A stretch of 64,000 nt of DNA from Anaspis maculata. Its lineage: Eukaryota > Arthropoda > Insecta > Coleoptera > Scraptiidae. Every line of letters starts with the position of its first letter. Position 1 is the first letter of the stretch. The translations under genes were made by a program, and so were the position numbers. The stretch is from assembly GCA_949128115.1 (NCBI GenBank), contig OX421961.1, positions 80,769,277-80,833,276 of the forward strand. The letters are read 5' to 3'. A model generated the notes under the pieces. That model was not told the DNA's origin and ran no database searches. It saw nothing but the letters and a program-made list of their open reading frames with translations. Below, piece by piece: positions 5,418 to 64,000 of this stretch.

Positions 5418-5502
5418 CATAATGAAATTACAAAAAGATAAAAATTGAGCGTAGGCCATGGAACACGACTATGTTTGAGAAAAAATAATTAATCTGCGGG
5501 TT

Positions 5503-6982: not shown

Positions 6983-7059
6983 TACTTACCATACTGGATA
7001 TATCTAGGATTGAGAAGCCGAACAATCAAAGTAATCAAATTATACTTTTTCTTCTGCAG

Positions 7060-32257: not shown

Positions 32258-32294
32258 AGAGTCGTCAGTGGCAGTGGATAGCTATCCTGCCTTG

Positions 32295-33284: not shown

Positions 33285-33428
33285 GGAGTTGTCCTCGTCA
33301 AGCTTTCCACTAAGAAGAAGGCTATTCCTATTCCTATTCTATTCTACACTAAGGGTGACTTTTGCATCAGTGAGACGGAGTAACTCCTGGGGCATTGAGG
33401 ACTGCCAACCAGCGTGCGCCCCTTAGCG

Positions 33429-34301: not shown

Positions 34302-34320
34302 GGGATCGCCGCTCGTAACA

Positions 34321-39435: not shown

Positions 39436-40006
39436 GCACTTGTCGCTTTTTTGATGGAGCTTTAACCCGTGTAACCTCTGGCAGACTTGACCACAACTAG
39501 TGCACTCCAGTCCTGCTGCAGCGGAGGTCTGTGATTCTGATGTTGGAATCGCTGCATTTAAAACTGGTGAAGTATTGTTGTAGTGGCATCATCCAATGAA
39601 GGTTGGTTAATTGTTGATATCTTGCTGTTATTGTTGTTTTTACAGCTTTTGACACTGTCGTTTTTGACATTGTCCGGATTGTCGTCGTTTTCAGAACTGC
39701 TGTCGTCCGTATATTTATATGTTGGCCGAAAATTCAAGCTGTAGGCATGAAATGGAGGCAGTCGTGATTCTCAACTGCCTTTGCGTTGAAACTTGAATTG
39801 GAATCTATGATGGCTGACACTTTGGCTGAAGTTGATTTAAAGCCGTTCGCATGTATTCTGGTTAGATGTATCTTCAATCCTTTTTTCCCTTTGAATGTGC
39901 TGCTACAGGTATCACATTTGTATTGTTCTTGAGAATTTTCTTCTTGTGTTTCTCCATAATTTGGGTGACTTTTGAACGAGTTCCGTAACAGTGACTTTTC
40001 TGACAT
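39436..40006 (-). pseudogene. N-terminal zinc-finger region of the RLE non-LTR element
   Basis: The 40,006-39,734 frame has a C2H2 finger (YKCDTCSSTFKGKKGLKIHL, then TRIH). After frame breaks at about 39,740 and 39,555, a second finger, C2HC (CTSCGQVCQRLHGLKLHQKS, then DKC), leads without a break into the RT frame; the Met at 39,435 is therefore not the real start. Such fingers bind target DNA in R2-like elements. Confidence 0.75.
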
Positions 40007-42769: not shown

Positions 42770-44841
42770 CAGGGTGACTTTTTTGAAAAGGACCCACCCC
42801 CGATATTTCGCTGTACAAATTTTTCCTGGGAAAAAAAAACCCGGAACAGGTCGATTTTTATTTCGAGAGGGACATCTAAGACACGTGATGACAAATTTTT
42901 ATCTTCAGCCCTTCGCCCCCACCCCACCCTATTTTAAAGTTTCAAACGGCATCACCTACCTTGTGATACATCAAATTGAAGGTAATGAAATTCCCTTTCT
43001 GTCAAACATATTTTAAATTGTCCCGAATCACCCCTCCAACCCCTTTCAAAATTCTCTCATTGTTAATGCAGGAAAGTTTCTCCCTCATCATTACGTAACT
43101 CCCGATTCTTGAGTATCAGATTTTCCAGTAGAAACAGGTCGATTTTTATTTCGAAGGGGACACCTACAACATGTAGTGTCACATTTTCATCTTCAACCCC
43201 CTCACTTGGACTCCGTCCCACTTTAAAATTTCAAATAGCTTACCTATATGTGATACATCAAAATGAAGGTAATAGAATAGTCTTTCTGTCAAACAAATCT
43301 GAAAAGTTTTCATTAAGTCACTTTCAACCCTTCTCAAAATGATCTTTGTTTATAAATTAGAGGGAAGTTTTTTCTCTTATTAACTCCAATAGGACATCCA
43401 GGACACTTATTGCCAAATTTTTATCTCCAACAAAGTGTAGAGGAGTAGGGGGTGGTTTAGAATATTTGAAATAATTTTTCTCAGGATGAAAATTTTATCA
43501 TCTTTATCACAAGAATCACAAGATAGATAATGCCATTTGAAATTTGAAAGTAGAGTAGGGTGGGGGCGAAGAGGTTGAAGATAAAAATTTGACAATACGT
43601 GTTCTAGGTGTCCTCTTCGAAATAAAAATCGACATGTTTTTACTGGAAAATTCGAAACTCAAGGATCGGGAGTTAGGTAATGAGGAAGAAACTTTCCTGC
43701 AATAACAATGAGAGAATTTTGAAAGGGGTTGGAGGGGTGATTCGAGACAATTTCAAATATCTTCGACAGAAAGGGAATTTTATTACATTCAATTTGATGT
43801 ATCACAAGGTAGGTGATGCCATTTGAAATTTTTAAATAGGGTGAGGTGAGGGCGAAGGGTTGAAGATAAAAATTTGTCATCACATGTCTTAGATGGCCCT
43901 CTCGAAATAAAAGTCGACCTGTTTTTACTGGAAAATCTGATACTCAAGAATCGGGAGTTAATGTGTATTTCGCGATGGTGTATCCGGTGATTTCATACAA
44001 TATAATTGTGTGGGGATGCGGTGGTACTATTGAGAGACTTTTTGTACTACAAAAAAGAGTAGTGCGCAACATCTTCGGCATGAGGCCTAGGGAGACCTGT
44101 CGGGGGGTTTTCAGAGACAGTGGCATACTGACGGTGACTTGTATTTACCTGTATAAATTATTAACTCATATATATCAGAACAGAAGGGGGCTGACGTTGC
44201 ATAGTGACAAGCATGAGTATCTGACAAGAAACAGGGCTAAGATATGTGTCGACAAAGTAAATAGGGCACTAACAAAGAGATCACCCAAATATGCTGGAAG
44301 CGCATATTTTAATAAGCTGCCTTCGCACATAGCCAACCTTACAACGTTAACAGAATTTAAAACAAACCTTAAAGTATACCTTACCAAGAACTGTTTTTAT
44401 ACTCTCAATGAGTACATGGCAACCTAAAGCCAGACCAGAAGAAATATTCGATATAAATATGCATTCGTGGAGTCAGTCCACTGCTGTGATATGCTTGTTA
44501 TTGTTGATGTTAATGTTTTTGTCCATATTCTGTCTATTTCTTCGTGTATCTATTTATTATTTTTTGTAGACCTATGTATATACCATTTACCTTGAAAACT
44601 GACGTGGCTGTGATTTCAATGAAGTAATCTTTGAGCTGAATAAATTATTTATTTTATTTATTTATTTATTAGGTAATGAGGGAGAAACTTTCCTGCAATA
44701 ACAATGAGAGAATTTTGAAAGGGGTTGGAGGGGTGATTCGAGACAATTTCAAATATGTTTGACAGAAAGGGAATTTTATCACCTTCAATTTGATGTATCA
44801 CAAGGTAGGTGATGCCATTTGAAATTTTAAAATAGGTTTAA
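42770..44841. repeat. Palindromic array of about 285-bp units, interrupted by a LINE tail
   Basis: Units with ACAGGTCGATTTTTATTTCG occur in direct orientation at about 42,845 and 43,132 (about 287 bp apart) with a partial third near 43,390. The same units follow in inverted orientation ending near 43,640 and 43,930, with a further inverted partial at 44,672-44,841. The centre of symmetry is near 43,430. The left outer end starts ACAGGGTGAC, a transposon-like terminus; the right outer end is truncated. Confidence 0.8.
43965..44671 (+). mobile_element. CR1/jockey-type LINE, 3' fragment
   Basis: A 5'-truncated copy. It encodes the C-terminal tail of a non-LTR RT protein (YFAMVYPVISYNIIVWG, LQKRVVRNIFG, then NKLPSHI) with stop at about 44,427, followed by a 3' UTR and a (TTTA)n tail at about 44,640-44,671. 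It sits exactly within one inverted unit of the surrounding array. Confidence 0.85.
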
Positions 44842-45890
44842 ACTATGTGCATACCTATCTATCGAGAACTTATTTGAATACCATAGACTCAACAGGAAAA
44901 TAGGAATAAAAAATTAAATTGAATGGATGAACTGCCAATTAAAAGGATCGCCGAAAGTTAATAAGCCCAAAGAATGTTCCAGCCTTCCTCGCTGGTCGAC
45001 TAGTTTTTCCAGCCGCGCAACTTTTGCGCCATTGTCAGCTATATTATGATCCTTTTAGTCCTAATTTCCTGCTGCAGCGCTACATTTCGCTTATTATACG
45101 ATGTCGTCGACTGGAAACTGAAAACACCTCTTGGCAAGTTCCCATTCATTAAAACTTTATTACTGGTTCAGCAAAATCTGAATCTGCATAGAACATACTC
45201 ACCGCACGATTCTTTCTCCCAATTGCGGCCTTGCGACGAACCAATTCGAAATTTATTGCATCACATCAGTTCAAAACTTGGAGTAGTAATAAAGCGAAAA
45301 AATAAGCTGGATTGTGATTGTCAACGGTTTGGGCTCGGGGCACACTCTGCTTCGTTAACAGTGTGGCACGTTCAGTGGAAAATAAAAAATAAAAAGAGCC
45401 TTGAGCCAGCGCCACACAAAACATTATTGCTTATGCATTTCCAAGGGGAGGATTAACGTATGGTTTGTGTCAAACGAAGTAGGTTTGTATAGCTAAGCTA
45501 GCACGACCCCCGCTTATCCCCCAGAGGAGCTTCGTGATGACAGACATCATTTGAAGAAAAGCACGAGATCTTTACTTATGAAAGCACCAAGACGAAAAAT
45601 ATTTTGGTATACAGCCACAAGCTTCTCGTGACAGTTCGTATAATCAATTATCTCACAACTTATTACACATTCGAAGCAAGCTTTTTCAGTTCTATTTCAC
45701 TCAAATATTGCCCAGAGGCAACGTCAATTTTAATTTAATATGCGAATGATAATTCCCTTTAGGAATCGATAATGTGGATGGCAAAAGATACGGAATTAAT
45801 GGCTACTCTTTCAAGGCTGATTAATCGCATAGAAATGGAACATACCTACTTAGTACCCACATATTTGTCTCGTTGTCTGAATTGAAAGTA
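44842..45890. other. Stretch without recognised gene
   Basis: A 136-residue plus-strand open frame at 45,046-45,456 begins with a hydrophobic stretch (MILLVLISCCSATF), but I see no domain, paired splice sites or homology cue; coding status is doubtful. Confidence 0.35.
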
Positions 45891-46404
45891 CAGTAATGTA
45901 TGGATAATCCGAACCCTCTATAATCCGAACACCCCAATTCTGTAAAATGATATTTATAATTCGAACCCCTGTATCCTATAATCCGAACTGTTACTTATTT
46001 TTCTTTGTGCTGCCTTTCGAAAGAATACCGAACATTTTATGCGAGCTTGTAAGTCTCAGCTTTCATTGTAAGCTGTATTTGAACCATGTCTTCAACACGG
46101 AAGCATGTCACCTTGATCTTCAACAAAAAGCTGATATTTTGCGTCAATTGGAGTCTGGATGTTCATACGCTACCCTGGCAGTACGCTTCAATTGAATAAT
46201 ACGAAATAATTTGAAATTAACCTTTCATGGATAATTTGCATATTTCTTAATGCATATTCGCAGCATTTTGATGGTTGAACAAAATCTATAAACTGAACAC
46301 GTTCGGATTATAGATATAATTTAGTGTGAATGCTATAATCCGAACGTTTTGGTAATCCGAACGGGGTCTGCAAACTTTCTGTTCGGATTATCCAGACATT
46401 ACTG
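45891..46404 (+). mobile_element. Pogo/Tigger-like relic with CENP-B-type HTH remnant
   Basis: Ends CAGTAATGTATGGATAATCC and its mirror, flanked by TA (45,889-45,890; 46,405-46,406). ATAATCCGAAC recurs several times in both subterminal regions. The centre (46,086-46,195) encodes a broken N-terminal HTH of a pogo transposase: MSSTRKHVTL, then after a frameshift DLQQKADILRQLESG and YATLAVRFN. The catalytic domain is deleted. 514 bp in all. Confidence 0.85.
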
Positions 46405-46628
46405 TATAATAATGAAAAATGGATGAAGATCAAAAAACCTAATTTTACAAAATAGATAAAAAGCGATTTCCTGTGTATAAAAAATCAAAATAGGTACCAA
46501 TAAACTGGGCCAAAACCAGGGCCAAAATTGAAATGGACTACCCCGCAACGCGACACTCAGGCACTCTTCATTTCCTGCAAAAAAGTGGGACTGAAATTCG
46601 ATTTTACTCCCGCAAAAGTGGTTATTAT

Positions 46629-47666
46629 AAGGTGTTTCAGCGATGATAGCAAAAAATTTAACTGTGGGTAGAAAGTTATAGCATTCTGCAAATTTCGGCC
46701 GTATGACGAAGATACAGCCCTCACAAATTTTATTTTTCAGATTTCAAAAATTTGTAACCCAGGAACGTTTTGACAAAAGTAACTAAATTCAGCACCGACT
46801 GGTTTGTCGAAATTATCTACCGACCTGCCAAGTAATGGCAACCTGCCTGGTTGGAAGGATCCAACCAGTGGCGTAGGAGTTACGAGGGTCAATAATTCAT
46901 AAGCATCCGAAGAAAAGTTGACTTAAGAGTGACCCCTCATAATTTTTACGCTACTAGTTAGATTCTTTCAAAATTTGGCAGGTTGATAGATAATGTTGAT
47001 AAACCAGTTTATGCTGAATTTGAAGATAATTTTGTCGAAACGTTCCTAAATTGAAAAATTTTGAAATTCGAAAGAAAAAAGTAAACTTTCATGGGCTGTA
47101 TCTTCGTCATGCATGAGGCCGAGCTTCGCAAAATGGTATAGGTCGCGGGAACGAAAATGACTGTCTAAAGATGAGTATATGGTATGATGTTATCTTCACT
47201 AGTACTTGGTAATATAATTTTCTTTGGTTGTAATAAATACAAGGATAAGCTATATGCGCTACCTTGGCACCCCCCAATGCGCAAACGCGGGCAAGAAGCT
47301 GGCAAGAGGCGCTTCGTTCTCGGCTTCGTTGTGCCAGTGTGCCTGCAACGTTGCCATAGCGGGTGCCACGGTGACGGTTATGTTCCCGCGACCTGCGCCA
47401 AAAGTTGCGGTTTTTTTGTACTTTTCCTGCAGGAAGTTATCTATTTCCATAACAACAATACCATTTAAATAATCATACCACCTGCAAATGTCAATTTCAA
47501 CAATTCATAAACTTCAATATTGATAATCTTCCTCACACTATGTTTGCGACGGCCGCATGAGGGTGCTGAAACGGGCGGGATATTCAAAATGTGCAGAGCG
47601 CCTATACTGCTTTTCGTTGTATTTGGACGAAGTTGAATTTTTTGCTATCATCGCTGAAGCATCCTG
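46629..47666. mobile_element. TIR element, ends GCTTCAGCGATGATAGCAAA
   Basis: GTGTTTCAGCGATGATAGCA at the left end is mirrored at the right end (ends at 47,666 with CAGGATGC-type bases and TA). A second, inner inverted pair (about 46,660-46,850 and 46,975-47,130) is a diverged palindrome. No transposase coding. An (ATT)n microsatellite follows. Confidence 0.7.
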
Positions 47667-47706
47667 TATTATTATTATTATTATTAATAATAATAATATT
47701 ATTATG
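47667..47706. repeat. (ATT)n/(AAT)n microsatellite
   Basis: ATT units pass into AAT units, so the tract is itself palindromic. Confidence 0.9.
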
Positions 47707-49311
47707 CTAATTTTCATGGTTGAACGTTAACGTCACAGCCCATCACACATTACATGTCATAGGTACGTAATTTAAAAAGCGAAGCGATCAGAGACATTTT
47801 ATTAACACCACGTGTAATCAAATTGTCCAGTAGACATCGTGTCCAGTAGATATAAATGTAGTTCTCTGACTCGCCTTGAATAAATAGAAACGCCAAAGTT
47901 GACGTTTGTTATTTGCACGTGATCGAGCGCCACCGCAAACTGGACCCCGGCTTGCTATTACTGGTAGTTCGTGGATTTTCCGGGCGAATACCGAGTATTT
48001 ACAGATTGAATCCATTTATCATGTGAATTGTTCTGGTTTGTTAATAAAACGATAACGGCAGCACATAACAGTCTCCCCTGACACATTTAATTGGTGTTTC
48101 GCCACAGAGCTATACCTGTCAATAATCGTTTCGAAATTTTAAACAATAATAATTGTTTCGGTTGAATTTGGATGTTCGATGCTGAATGACTCGTCTAATT
48201 AAAACAAATAAAAACACGAAATGAACCAAGAATCAAACAACACGACTTTTAGATGAATGGAAATTGGCACGACAATTTTTTTTCTCAAATTATATGCAGG
48301 TGTAGGTACAGTGAAGAGCACCGAATTTCGTACCTACATCACATTTTCTATCAATTAATCCAATAAAAAGGACAAGGTCTTGCTCCACTAAGGCTAGGCC
48401 CCATCTGCGTTATATCGCAGATTTCTTGCGATATATCGCAGAATTCAAATGAATAATATAATATATTTCTCGCCATTAGTTATTTCCAACTTTCTGCGAC
48501 TAGATCAGTTGTCATCTGTCATCAAGTTTGTCATTTTAGCACCCATTTTCAGACACGGGTTTCGAGAATAGGTCCCTTATTCGTTTCGGTTTTTTTGAGT
48601 GCGCATGTGTGGCGCGAATTTTCAGCGTGTTCGACTAGGTTGGCGTGTCATTCGTATCATTAATGCAATTTCAAGACTGGATCGTGTTCTGGATCACAGT
48701 GATCTAACCTTGAGCGATCCGCGTACGCATTTTCGGAGCTGATTGAGCAGACAGTTCTAGTTTCTAGTGCCGCAATTCTGTAACTGAATGTACTCTGTGA
48801 TATCTCTGGCTCTGTGCCGTGCGTACCTACTACGTAGAATGCGTTTGAAATGACATGAAACCCATTCTAATTTTTCCGGAAAGCTGGAGCACTTCCAGTT
48901 CTCTTCCAGTCTGAGACGCTACTATTCGCACGTCGTGGTCTCCAACGCGTTTCGTAAAAATATTGTTTTTTGATTAGTTCAGTTGTAGACTTTATAAATA
49001 AAGGCCATAACAACAGGCCGTAGCCGTAGTCAACTGAATTGCAGTTGGCTGGTGAAGAGAGAGATTTTCAAAAAACACAACAGACGAGTTTTTGGGTACT
49101 TGACCGCTTTTTTCGCAAAAAGTTCACACAGGTCGATTTTCTTTTGAATATGTAAAGAGGGACGTTCAAGTGTACCAATTTAACCGCGTTGTAATAGACA
49201 GGGTGCCAATCCTTCCTAAAATTTAAAATGACAATTGAGGTTGAGTGGCACATTATTTCAAATTCAAAGCTCCTTCAATTGTGTTCACACAGAGTTATGT
49301 CAATTGAATCA
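47707..49311. other. Stretch without recognised gene
   Basis: Only a short palindromic cluster of TATCGCAG words at about 48,410-48,452 was noted. Confidence 0.4.
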
Positions 49312-49500
49312 TTTTCAATTGATCAAGGATGAGATGAAGGGTCATATGCATAAAATCGGAGTAGGTGCTCATGCTCCAGTTTCAGAGGAGTTGCTGAGAA
49401 AAATTTGCTCATCAACTCCTGCAAAATCGGAGCATGAGCAGATACTCCGTTTTTATGCATATCACCATCACCCAAAGTGTCATCTCATAGTGAACTTTCA
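49312..49500. mobile_element. Hairpin MITE with internal second hairpin
   Basis: ATATGCATAAAATCGGAGTA and GTGCTCATGCTCC pair with the right arm; outer TGAGATGA / TCATCTCA also pair. The loop has its own small hairpin (AGGAGTTG / CAACTCCT). Confidence 0.75.
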
Positions 49501-51114
49501 ATATAGTAAGTAGGTACTTATGACACGAAATTCCATCCGTGGAACAAATTTAACTTTTTTGTTGTAAAAACAATTTCATTCCAGTTTGAGGCATTCACTG
49601 CGCCTCGATACGATGCCAACAGAGGATGGACATCTGATTTTCTCATCTGAAGGCCGCTTCGCATCCGACGCTTGACAAATGATCGTTTGATACATACATG
49701 TACGAACTTTGCGAATACCGCATCGATAGAAGTTTTGCACGAAAGGACTCGGTCGATTAACCCTTATCGGTTGATTCGTGTGTGACCTGTCGATCGATAG
49801 TAGGTACCTACATACACCTAGTCGAGCTCCTTCGGTATCAAGCATCAGAGCTTTGCGTGATGGTATACCTACCTTTCCTGGATAGGTATAATGTATAGGC
49901 ACTATAATTTTAGTTTGGTCCGAGTCTCTGTATTAGCGGATGTGGTCAGCATCGAGCAGATTTATTTTCCTTGAGCCAGAACTTCAAGCGTGGATTTAAC
50001 GATTCTTAAAACTCCTTCGAGGCTCCTCAGCATCAGCAGACTTTTACAAGCAGAGAAGTAATAAAATACGGAACTTGTTCGAAAATCCTCTTGTGAACAG
50101 TAAAAATGCGTTTCTAATGTCATGATGTCGTTCTGGTATAATCATTTAGTGGTAAAATTATTTTTTTCTATTAAGAAGAATGATACCAACATCGGAACAA
50201 ATTCTTCCAATGCACTACTCGTAGAGTCGTGTGCTTATCTTACTAACCATAGGTATAGCGAAATTAAACAACGGTTTAGTATAAAAAAAACTCTTGCACC
50301 CTCAACTTTTAAGGGCCCCCCTATGAGATACTTTTTTTGCCTTCATACCAAATTAAATTAAAATGATAAGTGTGGTTGTCTCGAAAATAACATTATACAT
50401 ATAAGCGTGCTGTTAAGTGCGAAAAGTCTTGTCGGCCATTGGCTGTTGCTCAGCCAATAACAGCGTAGCAGAGCCCAGAGCACAACTATTACGGGTTGAT
50501 ACCGACGACGTTTAAATCTTTTACAACAATGAAGAATGCATAAATCGCGGAACTTTTTTTTTGTTTTCACATTTTTCTATATACAACCAGCGAAGCAAAT
50601 GAGGCCAAAGTATTGGAAGAATTTTTTGAAACAAAAAATTCTGATCTAGGACTAATAGTTTTTTAGATACAACTCATATTTACTATGCAAAATGCACTAT
50701 GTTAACTACTGAGGTAGGTATTTTTCGTATAAAGCTAAGCTTTCATACAGATAATAAGATTTGCTCTTATTATAAAAAAAAAACAAAAAAAAAACAAAGG
50801 CTAGCCGAGTTACGGGGCGAAGACCGCCCTCAACGGTACAATGGCATGGTATTAACGTGAAATAGGTATGATGGAGATAAAACTATTCACCCCTAGTTTC
50901 TACATCAAATAGGTCCTCTTTCGGGCATGCTTTGTTAATCATGTCTCTCAAACTTTAAAATTAGTGAAATAATCATCTTTATGCCTTACATGTTGCATAC
51001 AATTTTTTTTCTACTTTCGTTTTCTTACTTTCTGCATAAATATGGCCATTTCATCTCAGGTGACTTTTGACAAGTACAACCTATATTTCGTTTCACTGTA
51101 GTTTTAGAGCATAT
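49501..51114. other. Stretch without recognised gene
   Basis: No exon, RNA gene or bounded element recognised. Confidence 0.4.
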
Positions 51115-51636
51115 TGTTACGTATTTCGCGTACGGGTTCGAATATAATTGAGACGATCGTTTTAAAACACAAACTGTTTATTACTTCGTACTACAATAAA
51201 TACACGCCAACAATTATTTACTCAGGAATTATCGCTGTGATTACAACTCGCTTTTAATCCGCTCGCTACCACTTCGCATTCCAATTCAATACTGGTCGTG
51301 AGACGACAATTGACGACAAGGTCCGCCCATTTCATCTCGAATGTTCCATGCATTCTCCAGCAGTTTCCATAGTGATCCGGCATATGGATTCTAGACCACT
51401 CCTGAATAATCACACAGCTTTCGCGTGCGGCCCGTGTGCTCCGGAATGTCTGCACCTCCGCCAAAATGAACAGATGTGTCTCGATCGAGCGTTGAAAGTT
51501 CCCAATGCCAAGCCATCGCTTATACTTCTGGAAACGTCCAGAGCACAGCTCTTGTATCTACACCGCTACATGATGGATGGAAGAATCCAGAAAAATCGCG
51601 TGTTTACTCGATTGCACGGGATCGCCGCTCGTGACA
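51115..51636 (+). repeat. Solo LTR (522 bp), TGTTACG...CGTGACA
   Basis: Begins TGTTACGTATTTCGCGTACG and ends ATCGCCGCTCGTGACA; flanks ATAT/GTAT may be a decayed 4-bp duplication. Its last 24 bp match the right edge of the gypsy relic (34,297-34,320). Same family as the copies at 13.3, 19.2 and 62.2 kb. Confidence 0.85.
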
Positions 51637-51922
51637 GTATAATTTTTTGACAACCAGCTTTTTAGGAGTTTCCAGGATAACAACAAAACACTAATGATAT
51701 TTATTGTATGCGTGCATGTGCATGTGTCTTGTATAATTATACTTTCTGTAGTAATGTACCAATAAACAAAATGAATGACTGCAATGTCATTTTCTGAGCG
51801 AGGCTTACTATTAAACACACCGCAAGTTGGGGAGATGGACTGGTTTAGATAGTCATATAAATTGAATAATGTTTATTGTTTAAAAGATAACAAACACGGA
51901 AATATAAATATTGCGCCTCTTA

Positions 51923-52058
51923 TGGTGCGATTCTCTAAAAAATTACATTCGATAAAGGCTCTGTTATGCTGTTATTACCTAGGCAACAGCCAATGGCTGA
52001 CACGAATTTTTACATAACAGAGCGTTTATGGAATGTTATTTTTTACAGAATAGCACTA
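51923..52058. mobile_element. 136-bp MITE in unit 1, TTA duplication
   Basis: TGGTGCGATTCTCTAAAA at the left is mirrored (TAGTGCTATTCTGTAAAA) at the right, flanked by TTA. Unit 2 of the surrounding repeat lacks it, giving an empty site. Inner TCTGTTATG / CATAACAGA also pair. Same terminus family as 11,363-11,488; the TWA duplication fits PIF/Harbinger. Confidence 0.8.
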
Positions 52059-52139
52059 TTAGGGTCATATTGCGGGCACCTTGCATTTTTATTAAACAAA
52101 GCTCTCCGACTACCACAACATCGGACGGTCGGACCGAAA

Positions 52140-52187
52140 CTGCACAGGCGCGTGTTTTGCCTCTATTGGGGGCTCATCAGTGCGCAG
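52140..52187 (-). pseudogene. Hammerhead ribozyme, inactivated copy
   Basis: Aligns base for base with the ribozyme at 54,485-54,532. CTGATGA and stem I are kept, but GAAA has become AAAA (G12 lost), the cleavage triplet GTC has become GCC (U16.1 lost) and stem II has one mismatch. It should not cleave. Confidence 0.85.
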
Positions 52188-52514
52188 GCATTCAGTCAAA
52201 CCATCCGATGCTGTGGCAGCCAGAGATCTCATGGTAATATACACCCAGGAGGACTCCTAACATGTGAGTCCTCCAAGCGGCGTCATCTATCAAAGGCATT
52301 CCGCAGATGCTATATTTCAAGGCATCAGGCAGGCGAGGGAATTAACACAATTCCACGTAAAGCCCACGGTCGCCAAGAGCATCAATGGTAGGTGTACACA
52401 TGTATACTCAAGCCGAGTAGAGCAATGTTTAAAAGACAACAAACACGTAAATATAAATATTGCGCCTCTTGGGGCCATATTGCGGCACCTCGCATTTTTA
52501 TTGAAACAAAGCTC

Positions 52515-52684
52515 TGAGGTGCCCTTTGGGCAGGTGCTCGAAATACAAACACGTGTTGAGTGTTTTATGGTGTTTATTATAATTGATTCTCCTAGGCTAC
52601 GTTGCTGCTTAAATAGGTATAATAATGGTACAAGAATGTGCTGACATATCATACTTGCACGAGGTTATTAAGTAGGTCACTACA
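52515..52684 (-). repeat. 3' LTR of the non-autonomous element
   Basis: 170 bp; on the minus strand starts TGTAGTGACCTACTTAATAA and ends GGGCACCTCA. Identical by eye to the other LTR. Confidence 0.9.
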
Positions 52685-52700
52685 CCTCCCCTTTTGGTTG
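52685..52700 (-). promoter_or_regulatory. Polypurine tract
   Basis: On the minus strand CAACCAAAAGGGGAGG lies directly before the 3' LTR; it would prime second-strand DNA synthesis. Confidence 0.8.
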
Positions 52701-53757
52701 TATGATGCATACCTGTCAGGGAATGCATCATTCTTACCCTTTACAAACTAAAAATTCAATTAGAAAAACAAATATTACATCGATAAATCTTATTTCAAAA
52801 AAAATAACGCATGTTTGCAAATAATTTTATTTCTTAAAGCTACTTCTGTCGATGTAAACAATAAATTACAAATGCTGATTCATTAAAATTCTTACAAATA
52901 TTCCATCATAGTGTCTTTCAAAATAAATAGCCACATAATAAAATACCTGATAAATTTGAATATAAAAAAATTCGAACACCAATTCAAACTGAAAAAAAAA
53001 ACAAACACAGGGAATAGATAGCTTGTTTGTTTTCACTTGAAATCAACAAAGCATAATAATAAAAAAATGTTACAATACAATATAATAAAAATTTTCCTTT
53101 TTCGAGGTGAGGGAAAACCTTTTCATTTAAAACTTCACTGCAATAAAAATCCATGTCAAAGAGTATTTTGCTAAATTTTTTCAGGATAATTGGATAAAAT
53201 CATCGTAAGAGATAAAAATCATAATAACAGCGCGAAATTATTAAGGTTTTTACGTTTTACAGTTGATGAGGCGCTTTTTTCTTCTATCTGAAAGGCATTT
53301 ATATACTTCATATATTTCTTTTTTATGCTGAAGCTTCTTTTTTCCATAATTCATCTTTTATTCTTCTCACCGGTCAAACCTGATTAGCATGTCCTAAGTC
53401 AATACTAACTCTAGTGAGTTCTAATAGTAATTCAATTCATTATTACTTCATATTCTGTCGCCGGAACTTCCTGGATATCAATGAGATTTTGATATCACAA
53501 ACGACGTATTATTATTCATAGCATATTCATAGCAAAATTTATTTTCTCAATCAACTTTTCAGATTTTATCACTTTCTAGTCTATTGAATTATAGACGTTC
53601 GATTTTTTTTTATTTCATTCGACATGATTTACTAAGGTTTAGGTAATTATTTCGTCATTATTAATTATTATTCATCTTAGACAACTCAAATTTCCATTTC
53701 TTGGAAAAAAAATCTAAGACACCTAAATTACCTGCATACATTGTAGAAAAATTTACG

Positions 53758-54009
53758 CTAAAAAATAATATTAAGTAATTGACGCTGGAATAATGCTTCT
53801 GTTGCGCGATAAAATGTTTCCGTTTTACTCACATATAGTTCATTGGCATAATATTTCTGGTATAGTTGCACATTTTTCATTATAAGTTCGTCACAACACG
53901 GAAAATTTCGAGGAAAATCTGCTGTCTGCGGAGCTGCTGCTGCTGCTGTTGTCAATGGAGCATCTACAGAGTGGGTGGTACTGTAGATGGATCGCTGTTG
54001 GAATCGCAT
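53758..54009 (-). other. Short open frame inside the non-autonomous LTR element
   Basis: An 83-residue frame (MRFQQRSIYSTTHSVDAP, an alanine-rich patch, then a basic/aromatic tail) is the longest on the element's sense strand. It resembles no Gag motif that I know; it may be chance or a shrunken gag. Confidence 0.25.
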
Positions 54010-54262
54010 CTCAAGGAGCCTCTACTAGGGATTGGGTTCCTTTTCTTCATTGGGTCCATGGTCCATGGTCCGCTCGGTTTATTCTACACATACGTCTGGA
54101 ACTTGGAACTTCGTAGTGCCCTGGTCGTGCCATGATTTTTCTTCGATTGCGTGCCGGTTGGCACCCATTATTAGCTTAGTTTATTTGCCATTTTTCACGA
54201 ATTATTCACTTTCAGTTTTCATCTTCTTAGGACCTTGCACTTGACTTTTTCAGGAACTTTAC

Positions 54263-54275
54263 GTCACGGTCGCCA
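54263..54275 (-). promoter_or_regulatory. Primer-binding site, tRNA-Arg type
   Basis: TGGCGACCGTGAC on the minus strand directly follows the 5' LTR. It is complementary to the 3' end of an insect tRNA-Arg ending GTCACGGTCG-CCA, the primer type used by 412/mdg1 gypsy elements. Confidence 0.8.
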
Positions 54276-54445
54276 TGAGGTGCCCTTTGGGCAGGTGCTC
54301 GAAATACAAACACGTGTTGAGTGTTTTATGGTGTTTATTATAATTGATTCTCCTAGGCTACGTTGCTGCTTAAATAGGTATAATAATGGTACAAGAATGT
54401 GCTGACATATCATACTTGCACGAGGTTATTAAGTAGGTCACTACA
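54276..54445 (-). repeat. 5' LTR of the non-autonomous element
   Basis: 170 bp, identical by eye to the 3' LTR; flanked outside by GCTC. Confidence 0.9.
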
Positions 54446-54484
54446 GCTCTCCGACTACCACAACATCGGACGGTCGGACCGAAA

Positions 54485-54532
54485 CTGCACAGACACGTGT
54501 TTCGCCCCTATTGGGGGCTCATCAGTGCGCAG
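54485..54532 (-). ncRNA. Hammerhead ribozyme (type I, minimal stem III), complete core
   Basis: Minus strand, 48 nt. Stem I CTGCGCA/TGTGCAG (7 bp, one G-U); CTGATGA; stem II GCCCC-CAATA-GGGGC; GAAA; palindromic stem III CACGTG; cleavage triplet GTC, so cleavage is predicted after ACACGTGTC. All core bases are present. Stem III has no loop, so a monomer would fold poorly and cleavage should work best between two copies (dimer), as described for ribozymes of Penelope-like elements and animal retrozymes. Outside stem I, complementarity continues imperfectly for about 30-40 bp (54,450-54,575), making one long hairpin. Confidence 0.88.
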
Positions 54533-54593
54533 GCATTCAGTCAAACCATCCGATGCTGTGGCAGCCAGAGATCTCATGGTAATATACACCCAG

Positions 54594-54640
54594 TGAGCTC
54601 CCAATAGGGGCGAAACACGTGTCTGTGCAGTTTCGGTCCG
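54594..54640 (+). pseudogene. Truncated inverted hammerhead
   Basis: The plus strand carries TGAGCTCCCAATAGGGGC, GAAAC, ACGTGTC and the 3' half of stem I, but the CTGA of CTGATGA and the 5' half of stem I are missing at the junction with the inverted copy. Confidence 0.8.
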
Positions 54641-54690
54641 ACGGTCCGATGTTGTGGTAGTCGGAGAGCTTTGTTTCAATGTTTATTGTA

Positions 54691-55763
54691 ACTAAGAAAT
54701 TATTCATTTACAATAAGTCATAATAATCAGGGCTATTATTCTGTTCGGATATTGACTCAAGTCATCATTGACAAAGTAGTCAGTTTCCCAGAAAATGCAA
54801 AGTCATGAAAATTTCTTCATTCTTTCAGGAGATGATTCAATTCAATTCAGGATTCAATTTCAATTTGACAAGAATTTACAGATATTCCACTTCGATTGTT
54901 GAGCACTGTATTTGTAGGAATGAGTCCAACGACGCACCACCATACTCCCCCCTCGGCTCCCAAACATGCATTATTTATAAAGGGCTCTTATCTCGATATT
55001 GTGCACTTGATGGCGTGCGCTTTTTTTCACACGCCCGAAAATAGCCGAAACGAAAAGTCAATGCGACCCATTCTAGGATTTCCATGCAGCACGATTCGCA
55101 TACACGAACAAGGTGTGCGAAACGGGTACAGTTTTTCACAGGAAAAAAAAAACGTGGAAAAGAATTGAATCGACATTCCGGCACTATTTCGACAATTTCG
55201 TCCGACGTGTTTATTTTTAATATTGCCCGCTAAAAGCAAAAGCGCATCTCTGCAGCGTCGGTCGGAAGGCGGCACTCGAAAATTCAATTCGTCTATACCG
55301 GATAATTCTGATGAAAAATAAGCAACAACATTCGGTCCACGGGGCAATAAATAATAATTCAAATGCAATTAGATACGGGGCACAAATCACGAAATTGGCA
55401 ACAGAATAAATCGCAATTTGAGGATCGAGGTCTATAATAAAGCAGAGATAATCTGACCTGAATTGGTGAATGAAAAGATCCGCGGCGCAAATTGGTTTCA
55501 TGATTTTTCAACTCGGTATGAAATTATGTTGTGTCACTCAACGGTTGTGTAGCTTCATTGGTGAACGAATTCGATGGCCTGGTTCACGCGATCGCTAAAA
55601 TATGGAACGATTCTCATCCAATGATATGGCAATGTTTTTGCCTGTTATGCTGGACTACGTCTGGCACCTGACACCTCTACCATATACCAGAGAGTCCAGG
55701 CTTAGTAGAGCGCAAAGGGTGTGAAGTAAAGTAAGAACATACTTACTTTTAGATTTTCCATAG
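54691..55763. other. Stretch without recognised gene
   Basis: No exon, RNA gene or bounded element recognised. Confidence 0.4.
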
Positions 55764-56336
55764 TAGTCCGGTGGATTAGCGCCAAAAATGCCTAAACCAT
55801 GCATTTTGTGATAAAGCTATGGGCTTCTGGATTTACGTCCTTGAGATTCAACTTGACAATTCCAGAATTGGCGCCAACGAGTTTAGTGTGGCAGGCGACC
55901 TCAGGAGCCATCCTTAAGGATGGAAGAACAAAAATTTTGTTGCCCTTATTCAAAAGCTCGCATATGACCACCAAATATCAATTTGTATCGTGTTGCAGCC
56001 TTTCTTGTTAGAAGCAGTCCTATTTGTGTTGCTTGTGGAGTTAGTATAGAAATCAAGCATGTTGATGGCCTGTTCTTGAGGAAGAATTGATTTTTATTTT
56101 AGTTTGATAGAGCAGTGAGCATTTTACACATTTTGCGAGACTTTTATATTGATTTCTGTTCTTGTTCATCAGTATTTATTATTATCATGATATACAGGGT
56201 GTTCCGCTACATTACAACCCGTTTTTTGGGGGGGCCTTTTTCTTTGCAGTGATCTCAAAAAAACCTTCCATTGTCAATTTTCATGAAGATTCCAAAACAC
56301 TAGTTACCTATCTATAATTTTCTGCCTCTTGTCATG

Positions 56337-56406
56337 TACAGGGTGTTACAGATTGTTTACAGCCTGTAGGTTACAGGGTGTTACAGATTGTTGACAGCCT
56401 CCAGGT
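56337..56406 (+). repeat. 35-bp direct duplication
   Basis: TACAGGGTGTTACAGATTGT opens both units, at 56,337 and 56,372. The ACAGGGTGTT word is also a common transposon terminus and occurs again at about 56,194. Confidence 0.85.
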
Positions 56407-56449
56407 AGGCTATAACATATACCTAATACCTTGAGGGTGCTATTTGATG

Positions 56450-56730
56450 TGGATGAGATGATGACTCATGTCATGTGCACTATGGGGATGTGCTCAACGT
56501 ATATCCATGTGCACCATGGGGATGTGTTCAATGTATTCATGAGGATGTGACTATGGTTGGTGCACATGAGCACGTTGAGCAGATCCCCATGGGTATTTTG
56601 AGCACATCCTCATGATGCACATGGGAATGTTGAGCACATTCTCATGGTGCACATGGGTACATTGGGCACATCCCCATGGCAAACAATGCCATGGTGCACG
56701 TGGGTGTTCCAAAATGTGCCCATGGGCACT
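56450..56730. repeat. CATGG-rich minisatellite with units in both orientations
   Basis: Variants of CACATCCCCATG, GTGCACATGGG and their complements alternate at roughly 20-45-bp spacing (GGGGATGTGCTCAACGTAT forward, then TTGAGCACATCCTCATG). NcoI-like CCATGG/CCCATGGG palindromes recur. Confidence 0.75.
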
Positions 56731-58310
56731 TTTCTATTATACTCACGGAATGTGATTTGGTTGGTTAGGTACTCAATAGAACATCATGAATTTATCGTTT
56801 CCTTGTCCAAAAGAAAAGAACAGGTAAACCTCAACCAAAGAATGTTTTTCACAAGGTTTTTCTCAAGTTTGGAAAATGGAACGAACACGACGACAATTGC
56901 AATTGCAATTGCACATGACGATACTCAATGGTCGTTTTGTGAAAGTTATTGCATCTTCAAAGTTTAAAGGGCCCCCATTCGCCTCCTTATCGACGAAATT
57001 TCAAGTTCTGCGGGTCAAATCATGCCAATTGGTATAAGGTTCACATGTGAAAAAATTCGTTGCCCTAACCCAAAATAAAGTATCGATGTATCCTTGAATC
57101 GCATTACTTGGTATTTCGATTCGAAAAAAAAACAGGGAAAATATCAAAGTTTTGAATGCAGGCTTATTAAGTTTAGAAGACATTTGGAATGGAAATTGTT
57201 ATATATTGTATCAGTCTTAGGTCTCTTTATGATGGAAAGCATACACTGGATGTGTTTTTTGTTTTTACAAGATAATTAGAAGGATTTGTTCCGAAAGTTA
57301 TTTTATGTCAACTTTGAACACTGTAATTAACGCACTCTCACACAAAAAGTCATATTGTGCATGCGATACAGCTCCGATATCATGTTTGTTGCTTTTACAA
57401 GGAGGAACAATTCTTCCTCTGCAAGACAAAGTTCAAAACCGTACAATAGAGCTTTTATTAATGACGCAACACGTTTTTAAATTGAAGCATGCGTCACTGA
57501 TCAGGTGCCGTGTTGAAGCAAACCGCCCTCGCGACTAGACACTTCTATGAGCCTGTAAAGATGAGAAGCATATCTGATGTATTGTTTTCAGTCGAAGAAA
57601 AGTTGAAAGTATCTGAATATGCAAGTATAAATGGAATGCCCATGGTGAGGAGTGAAAACCATGAGGTTAAAGTTGAATATCAAAAAAGCGTGTTTTTTCA
57701 GACAAACTTGTTCAAACATGATCCGAACGTAATTTGAACACTTTATTTGAACTCAGAACGTCGATTTTAGTCGAAAATGATACCAAACTTCTTCATTTTC
57801 ATTCAGGATTGATGAAAACCATAAATCGCCTTCAAAGACAAACATGCCTTCTCCTCAGCCCCCTTACGTGATTAGCATCGACATATTTTATCAATTTCTC
57901 CCCATAGGCTATCAGCGCATCGAAGTATGATGTATTTGGGTGCCTTCGGGGAACATGAAAGATTTTGGTTCTTTTACAGCTCTGGATGGCTCCTGAGGTC
58001 ACCTGCCACACCAAACTCGTTGGCGCCATTTCTGGAATTGTCAAGTTCAATCTCAAGAATGTAAATCCAGAAGCCCTTCGCTTTATCACAAAATGCATAG
58101 TTTAGGCGCTAACCCACCGGACTATAGATTAGAAAGGTACTTCTTTTCGAGCTACTTTCTGAATGTATTGAGGTCACAAAATTTAGGTAAAGGACTAAAG
58201 GGAGCTTATACCTAATACTGCAATAAGCTTCGTGGCTCTTGGTTTGCTCAAGTCAATAGCCTTTCCCTCCGTTCAGTTCGGTTACCACTACCCAGCAACC
58301 TCTCTTCTAA

Positions 58311-58801
58311 AGGTGGGTTCAGTCAGCTTGGTTTTAGTTTTAGTTGTAGTCGTAAATTTGAAAGTAGAAAGCACGCGTCATATGCGCGGCGTTCATACAG
58401 AGTTTTAGTTTTAATTTTAGTCGTAAGAATTCCGAACTTTGTCGTAAGATGCCGACTTGCAGGTTGCGTAATTACCGGTATAAGGTATGAGCATGGATGG
58501 TGATGGTAATGGGTTGTATGTATTAATAAAAAAATAGCATAAGCATTTGCTTCGATTTCAGAGGAGTTGTACTCCTCATAAATGTAAGTAAATACTTATT
58601 TATGCTCATTTTTTTTACGAGTTTTTATATTAATACTACCCATTATGAACACGGACCGTATGAAGATGAAGGTTCGCGCAGTATCATTCGAGCTCCTATT
58701 GGTCAATTCTTACGACTAAATCTTGCTGTATGAACGCTCTTCTCTGTTACGACAACGACTAAAACTAAAACAGCGACTAAATAAGCTGACTGAACCCACC
58801 T
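58311..58801. mobile_element. TIR element, AGGTGGGTTCAGTCAGCTT ends, TAA duplication
   Basis: 491 bp flanked by TAA (58,308-58,310; 58,802-58,804). Arms share GACTRAAACTAAAAC-type and TTCATACAG blocks. The TWA duplication fits PIF/Harbinger. No coding. Confidence 0.8.
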
Positions 58802-59583
58802 TAAGTACCTACCCACTTCACATAGGATCCATCGATTGCACGCGGAGGCAGTTTTTTTTTCTTCGGGGTTAGTCCTGTCACTCCTTTTCTTCCCCGTTGA
58901 TTGACTTCATCTCATCACCGCTCACCAATCATCGATAATCGCAACATTCTTCAGAGCGTTCGTGTCCATGCAATTTATTTCGCAGGCTATCCTAACTTAC
59001 ATTATACCAATAAGGGTGCAAATCAAGAAAAAATTTCACGATCAAAAACGTCAAAATGACAATTATTGAGACTCTAGACTGACAGTCCTAAAGTTGACCC
59101 ATATCGTCTTCCGGTAGTGTCCAAGCCCGTCTGAAGATTTTTACGTCAAAAAACGACAGAGTTTTGAATCCAATTCATGCCAGACATTTTTGTGTAAACT
59201 TGTCCAAGAGATTTCAGGTCAGATCAGGTACCGTTAGAAGCACAATATTACATACATCAAAAATTTTGTCACGTATAAGAAAAGCTGCGGGCATATTACC
59301 CTTCAGCAGTAACAACGCATTTCCCGTGTCGCTATGTAATATACTATTAGTGAAAGTTTATACTTACTCAAAGGAAAAACTTTTGTGATTTCTTTTGTTT
59401 TCTCAAAGTCACTCGCATTGTTCTTTGTTTTTAATCCACGTCGGCCTTTTTTCCTTTTTTTCGCAACGGGTCCTAACCGCTCTCCTCGACTATGGGCTAT
59501 ATTGTGAAAAAAAAAACTGTTACAACACAAAGCACAAGTGCTGTCTGTGAGGATACAAAATATAAAAAATTAAAAAATATAAA
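58802..59583. other. Stretch without recognised gene
   Basis: No exon or bounded element recognised. Confidence 0.4.
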
Positions 59584-60713
59584 TATTATGCATTCAGCTT
59601 TTATTTGCAACAAAGCAGGCGAGCCTAGTTTGACAGAATCCACTCTGTAAAAGCGCTGTCAGTGGAATGCCACAGTTTAGGTTATGAATTATTTTCTGGG
59701 GTTATCGCTTTACTTCAAAATCCAGAACAGTGTTGCAAGTTGATTTCTGATTGATTGAATGTCCGAATGACATAGACTATCAACCGCTTGTCATTCTTTA
59801 AGCGTCGTAGTGGAGAAGTTCTTCCTCATTCTACATATGGAACAAACGAAGTTGTACAGGCGGTGCTATACAAAGTGAGAAGAGAAATTTAAAATTTGAC
59901 TGTATTTAACAAGGAGGAAGCTGTGTCATGAAAGCAGTGTTTCTTTCAGTCGATAGAGATCGATCTGGTACTGGCATCTACTACCAATAACAATAAAAGT
60001 GAAGACCTTTGAATTGAAACGAATGATGGCTCTGGCCTATCAATTTTTATTAGGGTAGGTACTTTTAGAAACAAGGTACTTGAACTCGGAACATTTCGGA
60101 CTCCGGAAATTTGTGGAAATAGGTAGGGACTGTCCATCACTTGAGCTCGCAACATGATCGAACAAGTTTCTTAGTTTCTTTTCAGCCATCCTGTCTGAAA
60201 CGGACTTCCATCAGCTAGGTCCTCGCTCCGTTTTCATCTTCATTGATTTTTTCATTTCACTGCTAGCTTTCAGTGAGCACTGTAGGTAGCTAGCCAAAAA
60301 GTACTGAAGAAAGGAGTGTCACAAAATGTGTGTAGGCAGAATAACAGCTTTCACATCTTGTGATCTTCAAAAAGATTTTCTCACGTTATTCCAATCTTCC
60401 TTCAACCACACCCAAAGATCAAAATCCATCTTACACCAACTGTGTAACTGCTTTGACATCAGAAACTGTCAGAAACATCAGGCTTTTTTTTTATCAAGCA
60501 CAGTGAGCACCTACCCTGATGTGAGCACAAAAATTAAGCGGCAAGGGGAAAGACAACATTGCTTCATATCAGCTGGTATAGCTGACAGAGTATTAACACT
60601 GACACTGACTGGCAGCTGTAATAGCTGAAGTGTCTGGTTATTTTTAATTTTAAAAAACGTAAAAACAAAATTCCAAGGCCTGCTTTGTTGCAAATAAAAG
60701 CTGAATGCATAAT
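59584..60713. mobile_element. TIR element, ends TATTATGCATTCAGC
   Basis: TATTATGCATTCAGCTTTTA and TTTGCAACAAAGCAGGC at the left are mirrored near-perfectly at 60,674-60,713. About 40-bp arms, 1.13 kb overall, no transposase seen. Confidence 0.65.
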
Positions 60714-60852
60714 ATACATACATGTTGTAAATCATAAAATTTCAAAAAATAAGAGTTAAAAGATTTCAACAATGGAAAAAAGCTAAAAACAGATTAAAAA
60801 TACAAAAAAGACCCACAGGTGAACATGCTGAAAAAATATATATCAAAATGGC

Positions 60853-61182
60853 TCAAAATTCAAAATCACATCTCTTCGCCTGCATAACAACTCGTGTGAT
60901 TTCCCTCTTGAAGTTGCCTGTAGAGGTCATATTTTTTGTGGAAGAAGGCAAAGCATTGAACCATTTCGGTCCCAAATAGGTGAAGCACCGCTGCCCTGTG
61001 GAAGTACTCCTGAAGGGGACAGTTAAGTAGCCAACGCTTCTCGTACCTTGGTCGTGATTTACTCGGCTACATGCCATGCACGTAGCCCATACCGGAAATT
61101 TTGCCGAATCCCTGTGTGTTTCAACACAGGGTAGGAATCTTAAACGACCACCAACATCGCATGGGGTTGCCAATGCCAACAT
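60853..61182 (-). pseudogene. Non-LTR retrotransposon protein, C-terminal tail
   Basis: 109 codons. TRSVGYLTVPFRSTSTGQRC, then YLGPKWFNALPSS and FKREI match the conserved tail after the RT domain of CR1/RTE-like LINEs (TR...L..P..T..G...F...GP..WN.LP). RT itself is absent. No homopolymer tail is obvious on the left. Confidence 0.65.
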
Positions 61183-62150
61183 CAGTCAAATTTTACGTGC
61201 TAATGATGGAAAAAAATTCTCATAAGCCCCCTGGGTGAAAAACCAGAATGCCTCCTACCTAGCTATGACCTAAAAATTGAAATTGGTTATCAAACATGGC
61301 AAAATACTGAGGTTTGTGTGTCCCGGCTGAAATGAGAAATGGCATAGTCGAGAGGCCTTCCCCTCTTGAAAAATGCTTATTTTGTACCGGACAAACAATC
61401 CGGGGTGGGATAATAAGGGAAGTTTCCGCAGATAATGAAAAAATTACAACCTCAAATGACAAGTAATAAGTCAAAATGATGTAATTCGGGTTGAAATCTC
61501 CCCAGGGCAGCCATGCCCGATGAGCATCAGCAACCCCTGGTGTGCATAATGTGGATAGCTGAATTCCGCTTGCGTAATCTTGAAATGTGCCTATATTGAA
61601 TCGTTTCTAATTAGCGCGCACAAGAAAAAAATATCGTGATTGTTTGCCAAGGCTTTTCTTTATACGTAAGATCTGCTCAAATGAAATTCATTGCGTCCGT
61701 TCTCGCAACCCTTCTTCCAGTTCTTTCTATAACCAGGACGGCCAAAATAAATTGAATTTTATACGTTAAAAAAAAAAAACGACGAGTCTGAGTGAACAAA
61801 AGGGATGGATCTAAAGACGTATAATAAATAACATTTCTTTATTATGAAGAAAGAAAAAGCGTGGATTCTACTTTTGTTCGTTTTGACACAACATTTTCAT
61901 TTTATTAAATTAGGTTATGAGCATCAGGCCGATGATGCCACTGTGCTTTTTAAGGATCTAGAGAAAAAATATTGTTGAAAAATTTGACACGCATAACGAA
62001 AGGCCATGAAGGTGCGTACAGACCTGAACTTTTTTCGCGGACAAACAATACTCGCGCACACGTGCGTACATTCAGACGGGACACATTAGCGGGCACACAA
62101 TTTCAGCGCCAAACCCCTCTCAGCCCAGTGTTATATTAGCCAAAAAGAGC
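61183..62150. other. Stretch without recognised gene
   Basis: A 71-residue minus-strand frame (61,259-61,474) has no recognisable domain. Nothing else seen. Confidence 0.4.
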
Positions 62151-62590
62151 TGTTACGAGCGGCGATTCTGGAGAACACGCGATCTTTCTAGGCTCTTCCC
62201 ATTAAGTCGCAGTGTACAAATGCAGAGCTCGGACATTTCCAGAATATACGCGATGACTTGCCGTTTGAAATACATGGGAGACTTGAACGATGGGTTAGAA
62301 AACATCTGTCCATTTAGCGGCGGCGCCGGCTCTAGAGCACGGCAGAATTATGCGTGAAATGTGTAGGATTTTTTGAGAGTCGCCTAGAAATCGTATGCCA
62401 GGTCACTGTGGAATTTGCTGAAGGACCCATGGAACATTCGAGAACACTAGTCGGAGGCATATATAAAGCACCGATCGTCGAACGAAGTATATAATTGTTG
62501 ACGTGTATTTATTGTAGTACGTAGTAAACAGTGTGTGTTTTAAAACGATAGTCTCAATTATGAACAAACCCGTACGCGAAATACGTAACA
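62151..62590 (-). repeat. Solo LTR (440 bp), same family
   Basis: TGTTACGAGCGGCGATTC to ATACGTAACA, same orientation as 19,240-19,750 but about 70 bp shorter through internal deletions. The flanking 4-mers (GAGC/GTAG) do not match. Around 62,440-62,475 it retains the uninterrupted sequence into which the 13-kb copy received its insertions. Confidence 0.8.
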
Positions 62591-62978
62591 GTAGCATAGC
62601 AGAGCTCAAAGAAGCGTACTAGGGCTTGAAACCCAAAAGAATGGAATAGAATGGAATCACAATTCGCGATTTAAATTAATTTTCCCCGCCACAAGATGGC
62701 TGCTAAAGACAGGATTCAATTGAGCGCTCGAGGTGACATGAGATTTCACAGAAAGGTAGTTTATTAATTAATCTCACTTCTTGTATCAATCACAATCACC
62801 ACTCGCTGTTTACTCCAGTTTACTCGACGCCTGGTGCGGTCCCATTTAGAGATAGTGCGTCTGTTTGCGGTATTCGAATTTTAGGAGTAAATTTAAAGTG
62901 GAAATTACAGTGGTTGTGTTTGGTTCAGTACCTAGTAGTGTATCCCATCGTTAGTCACAGAACGTGAACTGAGAAACT

Positions 62979-63430
62979 TTGTATAAGAGAACTTTGCAAG
63001 AGAATAAATGGGAAGAAGAGTGGGTTCAAGAAACTGTACCCGAATGGCACCAGCTCCTAAACGTTCATGAAGCACCTTCGGGATTTGAACTTCCCCGGAG
63101 AATGTGGTGTAGACTCAACAGGGTTCGCACAAATCACTTATACGATGTGCTGATACGTTTTATATAAATTATGGGGACCTACCTAATCCCCCGAATGTGT
63201 TTGCCGCTTGGGAAACCAGACAGCACAACACGTCACATTCGAGTGCCCTCACGCGCGTACCAGAGGGCTCTCCGGAGGACTTCACTTCGTGAAGGTGACG
63301 CCTGAAGCTGCCGAATTTGGGCCTTGAATTCTAAATTAACAAACAACTAACAATTTATTTATACCTATTTATTCGCTATAGGTTATATTATGTACTATGT
63401 GCGCTATAGGTACGATAAATAAATAAATAG
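62979..63430 (+). pseudogene. Jockey/I-type LINE tail with (ATAA)n end
   Basis: The frame at 62,979-63,167 contains LPRRMWCRLNRVRTNHL, like the end of the RNase H-like region. After a short frame break a CCHC knuckle follows (CVCRLGNQTAQHVTFECPH), to a stop at about 63,327. A short 3' UTR ends in (ATAA)n at about 63,413-63,430. 5' truncated. Confidence 0.75.
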
Positions 63431-63616
63431 TGACAGGAAGTGTTCTCATTACTTCGATAATAAATAACAACGTAATATAAAAACCATTCACCATGAGAAC
63501 TTGATACAATATCCATCTAACATCCCTCTTTTGTCTTTTTTTTTACATTGTGCAATATTATACTACATCTAACCAGGTACTACTTACAATTCTTATATAC
63601 ATTTTTACAATACCAC

Positions 63617-63886
63617 ATATCGTCCCTTGCCAGGCAAAGCAACGTAAGCGACATTTCAGCAACTCTACAGGAGAGACAAGAAATCGTGTTGATTGCAAAT
63701 TGCCCACGAAAGAGTATCAATTTTACATGTTTCATGTTATGCTAACGTAATGTATAATTAAGTATATTTTAGTGCTTGTGATAGTTCACTTATTCGACGC
63801 GGCTCAGTGAGACTTTCCCAACAAAATCAAAAACTCATTTTCGCCAGAATGACGCTTACATTGCTTTGCCTGGCAAGGGACGATAT
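63617..63886. mobile_element. TIR element, ends ATATCGTCCCTTGCCAGGCA
   Basis: 34-bp arms (63,617-63,651; 63,852-63,886) pair almost perfectly, including AAAGCAAYGTAAGCG. 270 bp overall, no coding. Confidence 0.75.
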
Positions 63887-64000
63887 TATTATGCATTAAA
63901 TACAAAAATACAAAAAAGTATTATGTACAACATGGATAGCTATATGGTGGTTTGATGTTCCCTTATTAGCCCATATAAGCACTTCACATGGGTTGAAGAC

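Follow-up and report, generated by a model that had tools for sequence, protein, structure and literature searches.

An intact type I hammerhead motif in a small, probably Penelope-type insertion of the beetle Anaspis maculata

A stretch of 64,000 nucleotides from Anaspis maculata (contig OX421961.1, positions 80,769,277 to 80,833,276; hereafter the window) carries on its minus strand a type I hammerhead motif that is confirmed as real at the level of sequence. We consider it probable (roughly 0.75) that this ribozyme is part of a small retroelement, itself non-autonomous, which Penelope-type machinery inserted in a single event. Three repeat copies, unequal 3' ends of two of them (copies C and A), and a 12-bp A+T-rich duplication can be read directly from the bases. 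The original prediction was sound for the ribozyme itself but too narrow in its frame, since the ribozyme copy is one of three repeats within a single insertion at 51880-54677. We regard the locus mainly as a well-preserved case of a mobile ribozyme whose kind is already known, within an element that is damaged.

Read 5' to 3' on the minus strand, positions 54532-54485 are CTGCGCA-CTGATGA-GCCCCCAATAGGGGC-GAAA-CACGTG-TC-TGTGCAG, with all conserved core bases of a type I hammerhead and stems I to III, open at stem I. CTGCGCA and TGTGCAG form the 7-bp inner arms of stem I, GCCCC-CAATA-GGGGC forms a stem II of 5 bp with the loop CAATA, and the predicted cut follows the C at position 54492. Stem III can be read in two ways, either as a palindrome with no loop or as a single C-G pair capped by the palindromic tetraloop ACGT. 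We searched both strands of the window with a descriptor of the motif's requirements, somewhat relaxed (in order: CTGANGA, stem II with a minimum of 4 bp, GAAA, stem III with a minimum of 2 bp and beginning C..G, TH, and stem I with a minimum of 4 bp). It matched once, at this site, and never in 60,000,000 bases generated by a first-order Markov model with the dinucleotide frequencies of the window. The complete catalytic core, the 5-bp stem II, and the CACGTG palindrome that had been proposed for the minus strand are hence all borne out. A 7-bp stem I had also been proposed; these pairs do lie next to the core, but the stem continues past an internal loop (TGC/T) with 7 and then 28 further pairs, several of them G-U (54536-54542 with 54477-54483, then 54544-54571 with 54448-54475). 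The inner 7 bp are the canonical reading, and four of the seven are kept in the predicted monomer fold.

Covariance-model scores were lower than the Rfam gathering thresholds. Hammerhead_1 scored the 48 nt alone at 29.1 bits (gathering 34; E = 3.5e-6) and Hammerhead_HH9 scored the site with its flanks at 30.1 bits (gathering 52; E = 5e-4; 20 kb searched); taken literally, the refutation criterion that the original prediction had set itself, the lack of any above-threshold hit, therefore goes against the finding. No hammerhead model reached gathering anywhere in the window. At E values up to 1, there were no other hammerheads in positions 1-44000, and 54485-54532 was the sole site in 44000-64000; the inverted copy C gave a partial, non-significant match to the hammerhead model (14.5 bits, E = 1.2). 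We do not take the sub-threshold scores as a refutation, because no core base is missing and the chance rate of the descriptor was nil in the control; the gathering score is a database cut-off rather than a structural feature. A chance match to the hammerhead, in whose favor these scores could be read, is hardly credible given the empty result in 60 Mb of random sequence. Matches to the microRNA models mir-325, mir-549, and mir-4864 at the site lie far under their gathering scores and coincide with the arms of the foldback; they were not taken as microRNAs. The degenerate pattern CTGATGAGNCCCNAATAGGNNCGAAAC had no matches in viral contigs or prokaryote genomes, a result that says little as neither collection includes animal genomes.

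Table 1. Features of the ribozyme-bearing insertion and of the sequences nested in it, in window coordinates.
Feature	Positions	Strand	Remarks
5' target-site duplication ACAATAAACATT	54678..54689	-	
Copy C, inverted, 5'-truncated repeat	54594..54677	+	without core CTGA; head to head with copy B
Copy B, pLTR-like repeat with intact hammerhead	54446..54593	-	
Long stem I, 5' arm	54526..54571	-	7 bp by the core, internal loop, 7 bp, 28 bp
Type I hammerhead, intact	54485..54532	-	predicted cut between 54492 and 54491
Long stem I, 3' arm	54448..54491	-	
Nested LTR retroelement, 1.93 kb	52515..54445	-	two identical 170-bp LTRs (54276-54445, 52515-52684)
Rest of the 410-nt unit	52249..52510	-	tail ending near CTTTTAAAC (52427-52435), then spacer of about 180 nt
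Copy A	52100..52248	-	97% identical to B over 149 nt, same orientation
Near-palindromic MITE-like insert in copy A tail, 144 nt	51919..52062	.	
Tail end of copy A	51880..51918	-	3' end of the element
3' target-site duplication ACAATAAACATT	51868..51879	-	

Within the insertion, the inverted truncated copy C is followed by the direct copy B, a non-coding unit, and the direct copy A with its longer tail (Table 1). Copy C is truncated at its 5' end, inside the hammerhead core; its inverted arm matches B over 77 nt (97% complementary) and A over 83 nt (93%). It ends at GAGCTTTGTTTC, and the last direct copy ends 74 nt further on (counted on copy B), which defines the tail. The duplicated 12-mer ACAATAAACATT is A or T at 10 of 12 positions and ends in ATT. 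With both strands searched, it occurs twice in the window, at the outer ends of the element; when 400 pairs of equally long stretches were drawn at random, 2 shared a match of at least 12. Because copy C sits inside this duplication, it entered with the element. The element has only two direct copies, one of them with an intact ribozyme, and a net cut-to-cut distance from B to A of 410 nt (2345 - 1935, the LTR element and one GAGC being subtracted); the GC content of this 410-nt unit is 48.8%. The spacer of the unit is, by analogy, placed where a Penelope-like element (PLE) would carry its gene.

The element is interrupted and altered. An LTR retroelement flanked by the duplication GAGC (54446-54449 and 52511-52514) splits the unit of copy B at a point where copy A is continuous, and on sequence grounds we call this insertion recent because its ends are identical. 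Eleven bases directly after its 5' LTR, TGGCGACCGTG (54265-54275, minus), form a possible primer-binding site; they recur once more in the window, at 52365-52375 (minus), within the spacer that belongs to the ribozyme unit. No tRNA gene was detected by ARAGORN between 51800 and 54800. At 50384-50475 there is a 76% match to a portion of the MITE-like insert that interrupts copy A's tail, perhaps a second copy. The equivalent of the hammerhead in copy A, at 52140-52187, is changed at four ribozyme positions: in stem II, at the G of GAAA, in stem III, and at the T of GTC. These are all four of the differences between A and B over 149 nt. They span 14 nt (P = 0.0025 under random placement), and the probability of all falling within the 48 nt is 0.0098. 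Copy C agrees with B at all four positions and differs from it at two other places, so the changes lie most simply on the side of A. Their clustering in the ribozyme could mean that loss of cleavage favors the survival of an inserted RNA.

Predicted folds bear on whether the motif would act. The minimum-energy fold of 54440-54600 reaches -88.4 kcal/mol, whereas shuffled sequences average -52.2 (z = -9.4), and none of 200 shuffles was as good. In a single copy the inner part is re-paired and the canonical core is not formed, whereas two copies are predicted to form a double hammerhead with ACACGTGT paired between the strands. In such a dimer, each cut combines the core of one copy with the cut site of the other, and the predicted two-copy fold likewise sets the core of one against the cut site of the other. 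The original argument for dimer-dependent cleavage holds in these models, and the ancestor of the locus probably cut as a dimer.

The locus as it stands is a different matter, and its activity is doubtful, because the cis partner is changed at four ribozyme positions, the 1.93-kb LTR element lies between the copies, and copy C can pair with the core. Neither combination of A and B is expected to cut, since A is changed in both core and cut site. Copy C is predicted to sequester the core of copy B: their pairing spans most of the ribozyme in the predicted fold of 54440-54689, which reaches -176 kcal/mol compared to -86 and -22 for its two parts. A transcript starting upstream includes copy C, and the locus is therefore expected to be largely silent as a ribozyme. 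Copy B, the preserved motif, could plausibly still act by the remaining routes, i.e., a weak reaction as a monomer or a trans dimer of two B-type transcripts, and cleavage in cis is judged unlikely from these predictions. The locus illustrates how a perfect-looking motif can stand in surroundings, here a changed partner, a nested insert, and an inverted copy, that make cis activity unlikely.

The architecture of the insertion is that of PLEs, namely direct pLTR copies, an inverted truncated copy, a tail, and a target-site duplication of variable length at AT-rich DNA, here 12 bp. The Penelope or retrozyme context suggested at the outset accordingly gains support from features that the original prediction had not cited, namely the truncated copy in inverted orientation, the net spacing of 410 nt between the direct repeats, and the duplication. 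In Adineta, the PLE Pen2a has the same direct pLTR copies with a shorter inverted pLTR beside them, an optional tail, and a 9-bp duplication, and a few cases are described of unrelated non-coding sequence captured between the pLTRs of a PLE from this rotifer (PMC3846280, in part). Inverted pLTRs and short 3' extensions are listed among the peculiarities of PLEs (PMC8969392, in part). PMC11167929 describes PLE target cutting in AT-rich DNA at ATT, and reverse transcription from two internal start sites downstream of the hammerhead cut, which gives rise to the tail; the ribozyme of the Anolis element PAc/Poseidon is, as here, a type I hammerhead upstream of the reverse-transcription start.

There are also differences from these elements. 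No gene was found between the direct copies in the frames scanned, the tail of 74 nt is longer than the 30-40 bp reported (PMC11167929, in part), the 12-bp duplication exceeds the 8-10 bp given for PLEs (PMC3846280, in part), and stem I is extended and has an internal loop. No reverse transcriptase or GIY-YIG domain was present in the frames of the element that were among the 18 window frames scanned, so the element is at most a non-autonomous relative of PLEs and not an autonomous PLE. The eight frames in or next to it, spacer and LTR element included, had no Pfam match above cut-off; the weak matches among them (TARP, E = 0.057; HTH_SB, E = 0.17) were both far below. The undetected domains, the long tail, and the 12-bp duplication count against the Penelope-type reading, as do the sub-gathering Rfam scores, the non-canonical monomer fold, and the finding that ribozyme mutants were without effect on insertion of the Anolis PLE in vitro (PMC11167929, in part). 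Given these Anolis mutants, mobility may not depend on cutting; by analogy, cleavage may have its role at a different step, even where an element is active.

Under the Penelope-type reading, a source element would have been transcribed as tandem RNA, whose hammerheads would dimerize by way of the CACGTG palindrome and cleave the RNA to give units or ends. The RNA would then be copied into an AT-rich nick by a PLE reverse transcriptase provided in trans. The four ribozyme changes of copy A may have arisen before or after this insertion; the LTR element that splits the unit and the MITE-like sequence in the tail would have entered later.

A narrower form of this reading is that the element is an internally deleted autonomous PLE, the 180-nt spacer being the remnant of a lost gene and the ribozyme a known pLTR ribozyme. 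This is a serious possibility that falls short of even odds. Both the layout and the target-site duplication match PLEs and the spacer is located where the gene would be, but its frames have no family match above cut-off, and the outer stem I with its internal loop is unlike the minimal PLE hammerheads described in the relevant part of PMC7761336. Alternatively, the locus would hold a tandem animal retrozyme, spread as circular RNA by LINE-type or other machinery, with the inverted copy as an accident of insertion and without a PLE. The 410-nt spacing is near the 170-400 nt of retrozyme circles and within the 150-450 bp of their repeats, stem III can be read as in the axolotl class 1 motif (both PMC7229834, in part), and features of the Nematostella hammerhead repeats have been compared with LINE mobilization (PMC4918200, in part). 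We nevertheless find this alternative improbable: the inverted copy lies inside the duplication, an inverted copy with a tail is what three papers describe for PLEs (PMC3846280, PMC11167929, PMC8969392), and the GC content of the unit falls under the 50% stated in the text of PMC7229834 but over the 45% of its Figure 1C. More remote still is a hairpin-RNA locus, in which the 77-nt inverted arms would be a long double-stranded siRNA precursor and the ribozyme incidental. It would fit the low energy of the combined fold of copies B and C and the microRNA models that match the arms, all below gathering; the target-site duplication and tail, however, account for the arms without a host function.

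Type I hammerheads are known from PLEs and animal retrozymes, insects included (PMC7229834 and PMC7761336, in part). The non-LTR retrozymes of Acropora, Mytilus, and Ambystoma share with the present element a unit of a few hundred nucleotides between type I hammerheads and a palindromic stem III that is weak and should function in dimeric form (PMC7229834, in part). In contrast to them, the element has no more than two direct copies, of which one carries a changed ribozyme, plus an inverted copy; the main text of PMC7229834 does not use the word "inverted" at all. The axolotl class 1 hammerhead (HHR_Amex1) permits the same reading of stem III, one C-G pair and a palindromic tetraloop (ACGT here), and its repeat, when monomeric, cleaved by 6% within one hour, and far better when dimeric (PMC7229834, in part); it differs from the present motif, whose stem I extends over about 42 bp, divided into three blocks. 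A repeat-type hammerhead of Aedes, as given in the legend of Figure S8 of PMC3088659, has the same dimer-suited palindromic stem III and loop III.

The mover of animal retrozymes is unproven. PLEs are called a strong candidate on the argument that type I hammerheads and tandem copies are common to both groups and that the two co-occur (PMC7229834, in part), a curation guide states that retrozymes may rely on PLEs (PMC8969392, in part), and LINEs are the other candidates (PMC7229834 and PMC4918200, in part). A retrozyme-sized unit with a PLE insertion signature is structural evidence for the PLE link. We tentatively suggest, jointly with the reading that loss of cleavage favors survival, that the element is a natural link, i.e., a retrozyme-sized hammerhead unit physically inserted by Penelope machinery; if so, it would answer what mobilizes animal retrozymes. 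It also offers a defined sequence on which the connection could be tested. We found no description of such a unit bounded by a PLE insertion signature in the literature searched, outside which the key PLE-hammerhead papers lie, and make only a weak claim to novelty. Searches found no literature on retrozymes in Coleoptera and, as judged from the listing, nothing on hammerheads of beetles; in PMC2220036, the word hammerhead is confined to the reference list.

Elsewhere in the window, RVT_1 was detected in 3 of 10 frames, all more than 10 kb from the ribozyme element and, on inspection by eye, assigned to other types of element. A reverse-transcriptase element at 36993-39588 (minus) is represented by two overlapping frames, with RVT_1 (E = 8e-11) in 38095-39588 and no Pfam match in the other. 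By eye, 30972-34328 (minus) is a broken gypsy-like LTR element comprising one frame with RVT_1 and another whose protease-like matches stay below cut-off, and 3191-5427 (minus) holds a broken non-LTR element (RVT_1, E = 9e-30, in 3907-4539). A fragment at 5586-5945 looks mariner-like by eye, as part of a transposase, and has no Pfam match. The region 30361-30580 forms a strong hairpin on both strands, perhaps a MITE, that several microRNA models match below their cut-offs. The sole match at Rfam gathering level in the window is a tRNA (51.4 bits) at 28892-28963 (plus). Finally, a probable beetle host is indicated by the frame at 7035-7541, which is 77% identical to a protein of Asbolus verrucosus; 5 of its 19 matches name an organism, and we take all five of these to be beetles.
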